From an uncultured Bacteroidales bacterium (GTDB lineage Bacteria; Bacteroidota; Bacteroidia; Bacteroidales; Bacteroidaceae): a DNA stretch of 33,541 nt. Below are positions 7,230 to 12,474 of this stretch, one piece after another (the first letter of the stretch is position 1; each line of letters begins with the position of its first letter). The stretch spans positions 1 to 33,541 of the forward strand of contig CAMGGA010000006.1 in NCBI GenBank assembly GCA_946055515.1, read 5' to 3'. The translations under genes and the position numbers were made by a program. The notes below the pieces were generated by a model. The model was not told the origin of the DNA, ran no database searches, and saw only the letters and a program-made list of their open reading frames with translations.

Positions 7230-7305
7230 TGGAGCGGCAAACGGGGCTCGAACCCGCGACCCTTGGCTTGGGAAGCCAATGCTCTACCAACTGAGCTACT
7301 GCCGC
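7230..7305 (-). tRNA. tRNA-Gly (anticodon CCC)
   Basis: The reverse strand folds as a full cloverleaf: acceptor GCGGCAG with TTGCCGC, D arm GCTC/GAGC, anticodon stem TTGGC/GCCAA around loop TTCCCAA, T arm GCGGG TTCGAGC CCCGT, and an encoded TCCA 3' end. Anticodon CCC reads GGG glycine codons. Confidence 0.95.
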
Positions 7306-7655: not shown

Positions 7656-10064
7656 ATGAAACAAACCAAACATTCTATATTCTACCTCTTTTTCTTTCTT
7701 CTTTCTGCTTTTGCGGTGCTTCCGGCCGAGGCGCAGCGCAGGGCACGTATATTCGGACAGGTGAAAGACGACACGGGGGCTCCCATAGAATTGGCCACCG
7801 TGCGCGTACAGAACCAGAACGTTCTGACCTTGACCAACTTGCGGGGAGAATACTCGCTCTGGGTGGAGACTGCCGACAGCGTGCGGCTCGTCTACTCCAT
7901 GATCGGCTACGAAACGCGACGCCGCCTGCTTCGCCAGCCCATCGACAGTGTGCGCCTCGATGTGGTGCTACCGCTTTACGAGAAAGGTACGCTGGGAACG
8001 GCCGTAGTCACGGGGCAAGGCGTCCAGACCGGTAGCAACCAGCGCATCACGAAGCCCGACACGCATTTCCAGCCTTCTACCACGGGCAATGGTATCGAGG
8101 AAATCATTGCCACACAGGCTGGCGTCTCCACACACAACGAACTCTCCTCGCAATACAACGTGCGAGGCGGTTCGTTCGATGAAAACTGTGTCTACCTGAA
8201 CGGCATTGAGGTTTACCGCCCGCTGCTCGTCCGCTCCGGGCAGCAGGAAGGGCTCTCCGTCATCAATCCCGACATGACGGAGCGCATCGACTTCTCGACG
8301 GGCGGGTTTGAAGCGCGCTATGGCGACCGTATGTCGTCCGTGCTGGACATTACCTACAAGCGGCCCGAAACCTTCGAAGCCTCTGCATCGGCCTCGATGC
8401 TGGGGGCCTCCACCTACCTGGGCTGGGGCAACCGCCGTGTCAGTTTCATGACCTCCGTGCGCTACAAAACGACAAAGAGCCTGATGGGTACCACCGACAC
8501 GAAAGCGGAATATGAGCCCAAGTACCTCGACTATCAGGCGTTTTTCAGTTATCGGCCCAACCAGCGGTGGTCGTTGGAAATCCTTGGCAACTATTCCGAC
8601 AATCAGTATAAGTTCCGCCCCGAAAGCCGCGAAACCACTTTCGGCACGATGAACGACGCCAAGAAGTTCAAGGTCTATTTCGACGGCGGCGAAAACGACC
8701 TGTTCCGCACGCTTTTCGGAGCGGCCACACTGACGCGCCACTTCGGGCCCAACACGTATTTTGCCCTCCAAGGCTCCGCCTTCAAGACCCGCGAGCGGGA
8801 AACTTACGACATCCAGGGCGAATACTGGCTCAGCGAAGCCACGGGGCAGGAACAGCTCGGCGTGGGCACCTACATGGAGCACGCACGCAACCGCCTCGAG
8901 GCAACGGTCGGAAACCTCGGCCTGCGTTTCCGCACCAAGCTGAACGCCCACACGCTTCAGGCCGGACTCAACTGGACCCGCGAATCCGTGAAAGAGAATG
9001 CACGTGAGTGGGAGATGCGCGACTCCATGGGCTATTCGCTGCCCACAGACCCGCAGACCATGCGCCTCATCTACAGCCAGCGCTCCTCGACCGACATCCA
9101 GACCGTGCGGTTTGCCGCGTTCGTGCAGGACAGTTGGCGCTTCAAGACCTCCATGGGCCTGTTCAACTTCACTTATGGTGTGAGAATGAGCCATTGGGAC
9201 TGGAACGACGAGACCCTCTTCTCCCCCCGCGCTTCCATCGGCCTGCTCCCCGCTTTTTCCGACAACTGGACATTCCGCTTCGCCACGGGTGTCTACTACC
9301 AGGCCCCGTTCTACAAAGAACTGAAGGACACGACCCTCGTGGACGGACTCTCCACCGTGACCCTCAACCGCCACATCCGTTCGCAGCGTTCGGTCCATTT
9401 CGTGGCTGGCGCCGACTACACCTTCCGCCTGGCAGGCCGTCCCTACAAGTTCACGGCCGAAGCCTACTACAAGGCACTCTCCAACCTCATTCCCTATAGC
9501 GTGGACAACGTGCGCATTGTCTACTACGGCCGCAATGTGGCCAAGGGCTATGCGGCGGGTGTCGATTTCAAGCTCTACGGCGAATTTGTGCCAGGCACCG
9601 ACTCGTGGCTCACCCTTTCGCTGATGCGCACGAAGGAACAGATTGACGGTGTGTGGATTCCGCGACCCACCGACCAGCGCTACAACCTTTCGCTCTACCT
9701 TACGGACTATTTCCCCGGCACCACGCGCTGGCGCTTCACGCTGAAGGCCGCTTGGGCCGACGGCTTGCCCTTTACTGCGCCCCGCACGGACCGCACCTCC
9801 AGGATGTGGAGACCAGCGGCCTACAAACGTGTGGACATGGGCGCGAGCTACCGTCTGGTGGACAACGAAGACCGCCACCTCTCCACGGGGCTGTTCCGCT
9901 GGGTGAGAAATGTGTGGCTCGGGGCTGACTGCTTCAACCTGCTCGGCATCGACAACGTCAATTCCTACTATTGGGTCACCGACATCACCAACCGCCAGTA
10001 TGCCGTGCCGAACTACCTGACGGGCCGCTTGCTGAACATCCGCCTCCACGTGGATTTCAAGTAG
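7656..10064 (+). CDS. TonB-dependent outer-membrane receptor
   Basis: This 802-residue protein imports a ligand across the outer membrane using TonB energy. Order of parts: signal peptide (to about residue 26, ending AEAQ); a carboxypeptidase-D-like regulatory domain at about 28-110 (RIFGQVKDDTGAPIELATV); a plug domain at about 125-240 with NVRGGSFDENCVYLNGIEVY and EARYGDRMSSVLDI; then a 22-strand-type barrel to a C-terminal aromatic strand (LNIRLHVDFK). It is shorter than typical SusC proteins and has no SusD gene next to it, so it is not a standard glycan-uptake pair. ATG 7656 is preferred over TTG 7647 because it begins the signal peptide cleanly. It is monocistronic with its own promoter; I see no strong terminator after it. 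Ligand unknown. Confidence 0.9.
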   Translation: MKQTKHSIFYLFFFLLSAFAVLPAEAQRRARIFGQVKDDTGAPIELATVRVQNQNVLTLTNLRGEYSLWVETADSVRLVYSMIGYETRRRLLRQPIDSVRLDVVLPLYEKGTLGTAVVTGQGVQTGSNQRITKPDTHFQPSTTGNGIEEIIATQAGVSTHNELSSQYNVRGGSFDENCVYLNGIEVYRPLLVRSGQQEGLSVINPDMTERIDFSTGGFEARYGDRMSSVLDITYKRPETFEASASASMLGASTYLGWGNRRVSFMTSVRYKTTKSLMGTTDTKAEYEPKYLDYQAFFSYRPNQRWSLEILGNYSDNQYKFRPESRETTFGTMNDAKKFKVYFDGGENDLFRTLFGAATLTRHFGPNTYFALQGSAFKTRERETYDIQGEYWLSEATGQEQLGVGTYMEHARNRLEATVGNLGLRFRTKLNAHTLQAGLNWTRESVKENAREWEMRDSMGYSLPTDPQTMRLIYSQRSSTDIQTVRFAAFVQDSWRFKTSMGLFNFTYGVRMSHWDWNDETLFSPRASIGLLPAFSDNWTFRFATGVYYQAPFYKELKDTTLVDGLSTVTLNRHIRSQRSVHFVAGADYTFRLAGRPYKFTAEAYYKALSNLIPYSVDNVRIVYYGRNVAKGYAAGVDFKLYGEFVPGTDSWLTLSLMRTKEQIDGVWIPRPTDQRYNLSLYLTDYFPGTTRWRFTLKAAWADGLPFTAPRTDRTSRMWRPAAYKRVDMGASYRLVDNEDRHLSTGLFRWVRNVWLGADCFNLLGIDNVNSYYWVTDITNRQYAVPNYLTGRLLNIRLHVDFK

Positions 10065-10128: not shown

Positions 10129-10160
10129 TTTGGCCGTTATCAGATAACGGCTTACATTTG
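10129..10160 (+). promoter_or_regulatory. Promoter of the candidate small RNA
   Basis: A -33 TTTG (10129-10132), 20 bp, and -7 TACATTTG (10153-10160) match the Bacteroidetes consensus. No protein gene follows; the transcript would run into the terminator at 10284-10316. The expected start is near 10165. Confidence 0.8.
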
Positions 10161-10170
10161 CACCGTTATC
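10133..10170. promoter_or_regulatory. Palindromic operator inside the small-RNA promoter
   Basis: GCCGTTAT (10133-10140) and ATAACGGC (10144-10151) form a perfect inverted repeat with a 3-bp centre, lying exactly between the -33 and -7 boxes. A third copy of the half-site, CCGTTATC (10163-10170), overlaps the expected start site 29 bp after the first. This layout is what a dimeric repressor site would look like. The regulator is not identified. Confidence 0.7.
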
Positions 10171-10316
10171 CTACATACAATCTTTTTACCTTAATCCCGT
10201 CACATAGAACAACATGGCCGAAAGGCTGTTTTTGTGGAGACTGGGGCGCGTAAGCGACTAATACCTATCGAAAACAGTAAAAAGGCATCTCGTTGTGAAA
10301 CGTGATGCCTCTTTTT
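10165..10316 (+). ncRNA. Candidate small RNA of about 150 nt
   Basis: A promoter and an intrinsic terminator bracket about 150 nt with strong folding potential. CTTTTTAC (10182-10189) can pair with GTAAAAAG (10277-10284), closing the molecule. CCCGTC (10196-10201) can pair with GAC-U-GGG (10239-10245). Inside is a hairpin closed by a GAAA tetraloop (10214-10229). A second hairpin, CGC-GTAA-GCG (10247-10256), also has a GNRA loop. Together they could form a three-way junction. A 15-codon ORF (10214-10261, MAERLFLWRLGRVSD) lies inside, so a small peptide or leader is an alternative reading. I do not recognise a known family (not 6S, SRP, tmRNA or RNase P). Promoter and terminator make transcription likely; function is unknown. 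Confidence 0.6.
10284..10316 (+). terminator. Intrinsic terminator of the candidate small RNA
   Basis: GGCATC (10284-10289) pairs with GATGCC (10304-10309), then after one T-T mismatch CGTT (10291-10294) pairs with AACG (10299-10302) around a GTGA loop. TCTTTTT follows. Confidence 0.85.
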
Positions 10317-10454
10317 GGCTGAAACGCAAACAGAGGTTGCCCGGGAAATTTCCCTCCCGAGAGCCCCTTTCCGCGCATTCCTTATACGTATTTTTAACCC
10401 CGTTTTTTTGCTTCACATCTTCACAAAGTGTCAGTTTCTGATTGATACTCAACG

Positions 10455-10810: not shown

Positions 10811-10930
10811 TCTAATCCTCTGATATTCAGAAGATAAGATACTCTCTGTGAAGCTGTGAAGCCTTTTTCTCCCTATTAAATCACGTATATACACGCGTGC
10901 GCGTAAGGCGTTTGTGGCGGGTGTGTGAAG

Positions 10931-10960
10931 CCTGTGCAGGCCTGTGCAGGCCTGTGCAGG
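10931..10960. repeat. Three tandem copies of CCTGTGCAGG
   Basis: The 10-bp unit repeats exactly three times without spacers. Each unit is itself nearly palindromic (CCTG at one end, CAGG at the other). Confidence 0.9.
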
Positions 10961-10992
10961 CAAAGATGGCGCAGAAAAAAATAGCTCATTCC

Positions 10993-11024
10993 TTTGGCAA
11001 GCGAAAGTGCTTTTGCTAATTTTG
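10993..11024 (+). promoter_or_regulatory. Promoter of the DUF2520-KdsC operon
   Basis: TTTG (10993-10996), 20 bp, TAATTTTG (11017-11024). It predicts a leader of about 110 nt before ATG 11137. Confidence 0.8.
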
Positions 11025-11136: not shown

Positions 11137-12474
11137 ATGACCATGAACAGCATGAAGACATTTTGCATGATAGGGGCTGGCAACGTGGCTTGGCATTTGG
11201 CCGCGGCATTGCAGAAAACCGGCTTGACACCACTTGGGGTGTACAGCCGGGGCATGGAGCATGCGCGCGAGTTGGCCAAACGCATCTCTTCGCCGGTGGC
11301 CACGGACAGCCTCGGACATTTGCCCGCAGCGGACCTCTACGTGCTCTCCGTGCGCGACGATGCGCTCCCCGGGGTGGCTGGGGCACTGCATGACGCCGGC
11401 GCTCCCGCTGATGCGCTCTATATCCACACGGCGGGCTGTGTAGGGCTCGACGTGCTGAGCCGCTGGTTCCGCCACTGTGCAGTGGTCTATCCGCTCCAGA
11501 CGTTCAGCAGGAGCGTGCCCGTGGACTGGACAGACATTCCCCTTTTCGTGGAAGCCTCCACCCCCGAGGCGCTCGAAACGTCCGAACGGCTTGCCCGTCA
11601 AATCTCCCGACAGGTACAGCGGCTCACGAGCCAAGGGCGCGAAGCGCTCCACGTGGCGGCGGTGTTTGCCTGCAATTTTCCGAACCACTGCTATGCTGTG
11701 GCATACTCTTTGCTCAAGGAGGCCGGCATCGACCCGTCGTGTCTCTTGCCCCTGGTCGAACAGACCGCCCGCAAGTTGCACAGCGTGGCCCCCGCCGAGG
11801 GGCAAACGGGACCTGCCGTGCGCGGCGACGCTAAGGTGATGGAGCGCCATGTGAAGGCCCTCGAGGCCCATCGGGATTGGCAAGAAATCTACAAACTGCT
11901 CAGCCGGAGCGTGCAGCGCATGGCGGGGCGTGATCCCTATAACTTTTCTATGATAGACTACGACCTGAAGAAAATAAAGGCGCTGGCCTTCGACGTGGAC
12001 GGCGTGTTGAGTACGAACTTAGTGACGCTTTTTCCCGGCGCCGAGGGTGGACCGCTCCGCTCGGCCAACATCAAGGACGGCTATGCGATGCAGCTGGCCG
12101 TGAAGTGTGGCCTGCAGTTGGCGATCATCACGGGTGGCCGCAGTGCGGCCGTACAGACGCGCTACGAGGCGCTCGGCGTGCAGCACATCTACATGGGTGC
12201 AGCCGTGAAGCTCAAGGTGCTCCACGAGTGGATGGAGGCCGAGGGACTGCGCCCCGAAGAGGTCATCTACATGGGCGACGACATCCCCGACTACGAGGTG
12301 ATGCGCGTGGTGGGTTGTCCGTGTTGTCCTGCCGACGCTGCGCCTGAAATCAAGGCCGTCTCGCGCTACGTGAGCCACGCGGCGGGCGGCATGGGCTGCG
12401 TGCGCGACGTGCTGGAGCAGGTGCTGCGGGCACAGGGCAAGTGGATGGCAAACGCCGAAGCCTTTGGGTGGTAA
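11137..12474 (+). CDS. Fusion of a DUF2520 Rossmann protein with KdsC-type Kdo-8-phosphate phosphatase
   Basis: The 445-residue product joins two proteins that I expect to be separate neighbours in related genomes. Residues 1-265 are an NAD(P)-type Rossmann domain (GAGNVA at 13-18) plus a DUF2520 helical domain ([23 protein letters not shown]); the reaction is not known. Residues 272-445 are a HAD phosphatase of the KdsC family: DVDGVL with nucleophile Asp286 and Asp288, [18 protein letters not shown], and [11 protein letters not shown]. KdsC removes phosphate from Kdo 8-phosphate in lipopolysaccharide synthesis. No stop codon separates the parts, but Met272 (ATG at 11950) sits where a free-standing KdsC would begin ([18 protein letters not shown]), so an internal start is possible. 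It leads an operon with maf 35 bp downstream. kdsD and kdsA lie 11-13 kb away. Confidence 0.85.

Follow-up and report, generated by a model that had tools for sequence, protein, structure and literature searches.

A small-RNA gene distantly homologous to BTnc060 in an uncultured Bacteroidales bacterium and its predicted pairing with mRNA leaders

A TonB-dependent receptor-like gene that ends at 10064 and a DUF2520 gene that starts at 11137 flank a region of an uncultured Bacteroidales genome in which a perfect promoter and an intrinsic terminator enclose about 150 nt. The locus raises the question of whether these elements delimit a small-RNA (sRNA) gene of a wider family and, if so, what the RNA might act upon. 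Positions are those of the window, by which we mean the whole 33,541-nt stretch of DNA that was analysed.

Architecture of the locus

Both elements, which a preliminary description of this DNA had reported, were confirmed, at 10129-10160 and 10279-10316. The gene is made up as follows.

10129-10160, plus strand: Bacteroidota-type promoter, with the -33 element TTTG (10129-10132), N20 and the -7 element TACATTTG (10153-10160)
10133-10151, unstranded: perfect 9-bp inverted repeat, GCCGTTATC-A-GATAACGGC, inside the promoter spacer
10165-10316, plus strand: predicted small RNA of about 150 nt, its start placed by the distance to the promoter and by the 5' limit of conservation; matched by covariance model R1 at 10165-10309
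10165-10172, plus strand: unpaired conserved 5' end GUUAUCCU, predicted in several partners to pair with the leader as well
10177-10194, plus strand: conserved motif 1, ACAAUCUUUUUACCUUAA, the predicted main pairing segment in the window's lineage
10195-10256, plus strand: structured insert of 62 nt that separates motif 1 from motif 2, present solely in the window and G046
10257-10271, plus strand: conserved motif 2, ACUAAUACCUAUCGA (family form ACUAAUACCUAUUGA), the predicted second pairing segment
10279-10316, plus strand: intrinsic terminator, with stem 10279-10294/10299-10314, GUGA loop 10295-10298 and U5 at 10312-10316

Promoters of the TTTG/-7 kind are described in the accessible part of PMC7366714. 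The pattern TTTG-N20-TANNTTTG was found twice in the window, compared to a mean of 0.06 in shuffled sequences, none of which contained two matches; the second perfect copy lies at 10993-11024, approximately 110 nt upstream of the DUF2520 gene. The palindrome in the promoter spacer is a possible operator, and CCGTTATC occurs again at the 5' end of the window RNA (10163-10170). In the sister species G046 the palindrome is retained just partly. A simple terminator scan overlooked the terminator at 10279-10316 and picked an internal hairpin at 10214-10229 instead. Folding of 10165-10317 gave -40.9 kcal/mol, compared to -30.65 +- 3.67 for shuffled sequences, of which 2/200 were as good.

Between 10064 and 11137 there are just mechanical reading frames of 63-193 aa, and Pfam gave no match at E 0.1 or below for the seven that were tested, which supports, short of proof, the earlier view that the gap is without a protein gene. 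A coding RNA was rejected, the 15-codon frame that begins at 10214 being confined to an insert that is absent from 129 of 131 homologs. At the curated Rfam cut-offs the window yields a tRNA and nothing else; this is a tRNA-Gly (CCC) gene at 7230-7305 on the minus strand, upstream of the TonB-dependent receptor-like gene. Three head-to-tail GCCTGTGCAG units are found in the intergenic sequence at 10930-10961.

Conserved anatomy and relatives

When the 221-nt region was used as query, relatives were found in 18 of the 58 genomes of the window's genus. Common to them are a 5' block, GUUAUCC-n-ACAAUCUUUUUACCUUAA, a second block, ACUAAUACCUAU, and then a terminator. The motif 1 pattern, which forms the family core, matched at least 120 stretches of named genomes; among the matches listed (80 titles) were Bacteroides, Phocaeicola, Prevotella, Segatella, Hallella, Xylanibacter, Paraprevotella and Bacteroidales, along with one record titled Clostridium. 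We extracted 135 distinct homologs and dropped three without a clear motif 2 and one that was too short, leaving 131. The invariance of motif 1 in this set is by construction, because the set was gathered largely by the motif 1 pattern; motif 2, the terminator loop and the promoter lay outside that pattern. The usual form of the family is approximately 83-94 nt long and consists of an unpaired 5' half with the two conserved motifs, followed by a GNRA-capped terminator. The gap between the motifs is 0-11 nt in 129/131 homologs and 63 and 68 nt in the window and G046. The terminator loop is GUGA in 98/131 homologs and GAGA, GCGA or GGGA in 21 more. TAnnTTTG precedes 113/131, with a TTG 17-22 nt further upstream in 107; this conservation indicates that the promoter of the window is more than a chance match, and on sequence the reading of the locus as a small-RNA gene with its own promoter and terminator was right.

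The covariation check that had been suggested for this RNA was also performed. RNAalifold analysis of 41 sequences, the window included, predicted a single hairpin of 11 pairs, which is the terminator, with compensatory changes in 11/11 pairs. A covariance model (R1) built from the same 41-sequence alignment scores 57.1 bits on the window, itself one of the building sequences. R1 matched 27/58 genomes of the window's genus and, in a sample across the order (taken from the record titles above to be Bacteroidales), 56/393 genomes from 28/205 genera; the window's own taxonomic family accounts for 6 of the 56 matched genomes, and 317 of the match-free genomes may hold more of it. Among 16 further genomes of that family, picked for carrying the secreted-protein gene discussed below, 15 were matched. 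Realignment of 58 R1 matches showed that the letters of CAAUCUUUUUACCUUAA are retained in 54-58 of them, and the letters of CUAAUACCUA in 44-58.

R1 found one copy in the window's genome, one in each of four g2 genomes, one or two in g4 and five in g220, where g2 is termed Bacteroides-like on the match of the G113 gene and promoter to those of B. pyogenes (L214 and L042) and g4 Prevotella-like on its neighbour genes. Part of these counts was made with strict filters and few scored candidates (11 per genome for G113 and G209, compared to 150 for G490 and G507), so that copies may be missed. Two copies, a GAAAA form and a GAATA form, occur in some Prevotella-type genomes (L054 and L061; L326 and L334). 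The neighbours of the sRNA vary, being a GlnRS-type gene in some genera and different genes in others. A divergent glutaminyl/glutamyl-tRNA synthetase gene lies beside the sRNA at the Bacteroides- or Prevotella-type loci L042, L060 and L213 (tested against Pfam) and, by ORF size only, at L053, L092, L073 and L106; the window has other neighbours. The gene thus carries its own promoter and intrinsic terminator without a fixed neighbour, as is expected of a trans-acting base-pairing sRNA, and on sequence it looks like a member of a small-RNA family spread over the order.

The window copy was originally described as able to form a closing helix, two GNRA-loop hairpins and a possible three-way junction. 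The hairpins belong to the insert, which consists of an arm (10196-10245) with an inner GAAA hairpin and a CGC-GUAA-GCG hairpin (10247-10256). The insert is 62-67 nt long in the window and G046, and both species have the arm with its GAAA hairpin as well as the small GUAA hairpin. It folds at -22.5 kcal/mol in the window and -22.2 kcal/mol in G046, with 1 and 0 of 200 shuffles as good (z -2.7 and -3.1). The arm has diverged between the two species, yet the predicted fold is alike, and for this reason the GAAA and GUAA hairpins are probably real elements kept in two species. They stand outside the family core, in an insert absent from 129/131 homologs, and the closing helix (10182-10189 with 10277-10284) is possible in 2/131, these being the window and G046 by a crude test for the 3' arm GTAAAA. 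The hairpins of the earlier description probably hold for the two carriers, and its helix and junction did not extend to the family: judged by these alignments, the conserved core is the unpaired 5' half plus the terminator, not the junction.

The locus had also been said to match no known RNA family, a statement that has to be revised. The Rfam model of the Bacteroides sRNA BTnc060 (RF04184) aligns to the promoter and 5' half of the window gene with 33.8 bits and E 0.001. Its gathering cut-off of 228.9 bits is reached neither by the window nor by the Bacteroides-like homologs, the best of which scores 191.8. At E up to 1, RF04184 also matches 5/14 control genomes, some of them unrelated, so that only its strong hits count. 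RF04184 and R1 find the same gene in the Bacteroides-like genomes G113, G209 and G288, with RF04184 scores of 191.8, 167.6 and 110.8 bits in Bacteroides-like genomes, and R1, which includes the window, finds the window copy too, as common descent would predict. By this sequence comparison the window RNA is a distant homolog of BTnc060, from which it differs by the 62-nt insert. The BTnc060 model has a length of 213 nt and in G113 starts approximately 124 nt before the conserved 5' end of the RNA, which suggests that it has the wrong bounds and too strict a cut-off. A search limited to the main texts of a collection of papers returned no mention of BTnc060, hence no function, and no occurrence of the motif 1 letters.

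Predicted mRNA partners

We examined start regions for complementarity to the sRNA in G352, where 574 such regions were taken from 0.8 of the 3.29 Mb. The lowest energy, -22.8, was obtained at a gene for a 120-aa secreted protein, with motif 2 and motif 1 paired in the right order across the start codon. As a class, the start regions of G352 were not enriched (mean -9.0, compared to -9.5 +- 0.5 for 20 shuffled sRNAs). The best value was no outlier (the next were -21.3 and -20.8) and was equalled by 28/40 shuffled sRNAs; duplex energy alone was accordingly rejected as proof of a target. Because the energy in G352 was not significant in itself, homologs of the gene were examined. They were found in 21/81 genomes of the taxonomic family and make up a family of proteins of approximately 118 aa, for which the naming searches gave no convincing result: NCBIfam had a best E of 0.0018 in one member; Pfam had DUF4179 in 7/16 (best E 1e-4, below the cut-off in the member shown) and LTXXQ in one at E 0.14; and PDB sequences had a best E of 0.0073. 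A weak second RF04184 match in G113 (23.5 bits, E 0.27) lies antisense at the start of a homolog of the secreted-protein gene.

Pairing was tested for 32 genes, which comprise those of 29 of the 30 homolog loci (one with two genes; the fragment L315 was left out) and of two further loci; five further homolog matches were without a locus and outside this test. Each leader was paired with the sRNA of the same genome, or with the consensus sRNA for G482, where no sRNA was found. In other genera, duplexes with the genome's own sRNA reached -41.9, -40.4, -37.5, -36.1, -33.9, -32.4, -31.8 and -31.0 kcal/mol, each with 0/200 leader shuffles as good. Over the whole set, the number of shuffles as good, of 200, was 0 for 13/32 genes, at most 2 for 18/32 and at least 5 for 14/32, and the duplex was at -30 kcal/mol or below for 10/32. 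By way of background, of 656 start regions from named sRNA loci scored with one Bacteroides-like sRNA, 1 reaches -25 and 0 reach -30. The 14 genes without convincing pairing include 5/5 tested in g206, where the sRNA is present, and 2/2 in the window's genus.

Thirteen genes were tested in further genomes of the order, one of them from G288 of the window's family. For the four close homologs the shuffles as good, of 200, numbered 0 (G288), 0 (G181), 1 (G245) and 7 (G155); among nine weaker homologs, one in G155 (L396) gave 0 and the other eight at least 15. Thus 9/13 genes in this set fail, with at least 5/200 shuffles as good. The G245 duplex has 29 pairs and one bulged base (-36.6 kcal/mol, 1/200) and that of G181 reaches -31.1 kcal/mol (0/200). 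Complementarity to part of the approximately 118-aa protein family was seen in several genera and in two further taxonomic families, down to about -42 kcal/mol overall. The start codon is inside the predicted duplex in G352, G510 and G453; in several other partners the duplex ends at least 15 nt upstream of it, extending to -15 or -16 in G490 and G113 and spanning -73..-42 in G245. These data indicate conserved complementarity of the sRNA to mRNA leaders and starts, with failures in 14/32 and 9/13 genes.

In g220 (G464 and G485) each genome has five sRNA paralogs, the secreted-protein gene is present in five or six copies, and an altered sRNA matches an altered leader. In G464 a paralog with an altered seed pairs at -35.7, compared to -20.1 for the consensus sRNA, and in G485 the values are -30.9 for the own sRNA and -20.8 for the consensus. 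The g220 paralogs lie at L332, L333 and L335-L342, some of them without motif 2.

The approximately 118-aa family was rejected as the target in the window's own genome, whose assembly is 76% complete and in which no homolog was detected. Clear homologs (E about 1e-25) were found in 2/58 genomes of the genus, compared to 27/58 for the sRNA, so that in this genus the RNA must have additional targets or duties. A search of the window's genome for ACAATCTTTTTACCTTAA, with 3 mismatches allowed, gave, besides the sRNA gene, only the leader of a DUF1573 gene (identified by Pfam at 118.3 bits); this single 18-mer match is not above the reversed control, which gave two. The core of the sRNA, with the insert left out, pairs with the DUF1573 leader at -31.2 in the window and -28.1 in G046 (0/150 each), and the actual first 52 nt of the window RNA do so at -32.2 (0/200). 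The 17-nt leader site is identical in the two species (17/17), compared to 16/32 and 14/26 in its flanks, where the 5' limit of the flank was our choice; further upstream, in what is probably the promoter, identity is 43/46. The comparison was extended to 30 DUF1573 loci, of 52 genomes with a match. This pairing was found in 2/18 sRNA-bearing genomes of the genus (the window and G046) and in none of the other 16 or of 12 sRNA-free members, the nearest having 6 and 9 of 150. No difference in pairing was seen between sRNA-bearing and sRNA-free genomes (Mann-Whitney p 0.42), and DUF1573 was rejected as a genus-wide target.

Long-seed sites (AAGGTAAAAAGATTG, with 1 mismatch allowed) number 59 in the 58 genomes of the genus, 23 of them being sRNA genes by position. 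The remaining 36, which are complementary to motif 1, compare to 14 for the reversed control, an excess that points to further targets. Among the 30 sites inspected, those with loci, the ones not sRNA-like were mostly in open frames and had no shared target, and the L166 site abuts a start codon; a site outside these 30, in G046 (C4), is the DUF1573 leader.

Proposed function and relation to known sRNAs

On the strength of these sequence comparisons we consider it probable that the RNA is a trans-acting antisense sRNA, homologous to BTnc060, that lowers the expression of small secreted proteins by pairing with the leaders or starts of their mRNAs. It would be transcribed from its own promoter and end at the GNRA-capped terminator, and its unpaired 5' half (motif 1, short spacer, motif 2) would provide an extended antisense sequence that zips up with the target at its leader or start codon; in the window RNA, pairing of both motifs would leave the 62-nt insert as a loop between them. 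We infer duplex formation inside the cell and, as its result, lower translation or lower stability of the mRNA. Some partners have their start codon within the predicted duplex and others downstream of it, so that repression is likely. A broader picture is put forward more tentatively, at somewhat less than even confidence: an order-wide antisense RNA with a near-frozen strand of approximately 50 nt would be directed at secreted envelope proteins, with its target exchanged between lineages (the approximately 118-aa family in many, DUF1573 in that of the window, where a gained structured arm splits the strand) and with sRNA and target copies multiplied and co-changed in one genus.

The same duplexes might instead activate or protect the target mRNA, and those ending at least 15 nt upstream of the start codon in several partners need not block initiation. 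We consider this unlikely, given the predicted duplexes over the start codon in G352, G510 and G453 and that Bacteroides sRNAs mostly repress, as far as the accessible parts of PMC7366714, PMC11697453 and PMC10861873 report. A further reading treats the RNA mainly as a protein-binding or sponge RNA, in which unpaired ACCU-like motifs (AUCCU or AACCU, UUACCUU and AUACCU, with AACCUAU also in distant members) serve for protein binding, and the complementarity to mRNAs is of secondary importance or lets the mRNA titrate the RNA. Both motifs are indeed kept where no partner leader was found, in g206 and most of the window's genus, several ACCU copies are present in distant members, and RbpB is reported, in the text available for PMC11697453, to bind single-stranded regions of Bacteroides sRNAs. 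Partner leaders nevertheless match whole stretches beyond ACCU, as in the 29 pairs with one bulge of G245, and in G464 and G485 changes in the sRNA are paralleled in the leader, which makes a mainly protein-binding role rather improbable. Where no partner is seen, the constancy of the motifs is most likely due to further targets or to a bound protein.

The three-way junction could also have been the functional centre of a structured RNA, such as a ribozyme or a ligand-binding RNA. The insert folds better than its shuffles in both carriers (z -2.7 and -3.1); it is, however, missing in 129/131 homologs, and the closing helix is possible in 2/131. In addition, no Rfam ribozyme or riboswitch was matched up to E 5, a sucC cis-element at E 0.3 being at chance level. 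We regard this reading as highly improbable.

Antisense repression by the sRNA, as proposed here, can be set beside the sRNAs that are described for Bacteroides or its family in the accessible parts of PMC7366714, PMC11697453 and PMC10861873. An sRNA found across many families of the order, together with a family of partner mRNAs that can be recognised from their sequence, constitutes a directly testable regulator in common gut bacteria, and the sRNA family may exemplify a seed that stays fixed while its targets change. FopS and GibS were compared by description only, no family of either being among the Rfam matches. As described in the available portions of PMC11697453 and PMC7366714, they resemble the present family in having an unpaired, conserved seed at the 5' end and an intrinsic terminator, and in pairing close to mRNA starts. 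For FopS of B. thetaiotaomicron, 14 paralogs of approximately 65 and 70 nt and susC-type mRNA targets are reported (PMC11697453, in part); R1 gave a single match per genome in the four g2 members G113, G209, G490 and G507, a count that may be too low. BatR (BTnc167), according to the available text of PMC10861873, is likewise a conserved Bacteroides sRNA with its own promoter; it functions in bile tolerance, and its targets are cell-surface genes, which it represses through pairing where their translation begins. It is a separate gene with a full length of 154 nt, and its seed is proposed to be freed by processing, whereas the pairing strand of the RNA described here is predicted to be open at the very 5' end.
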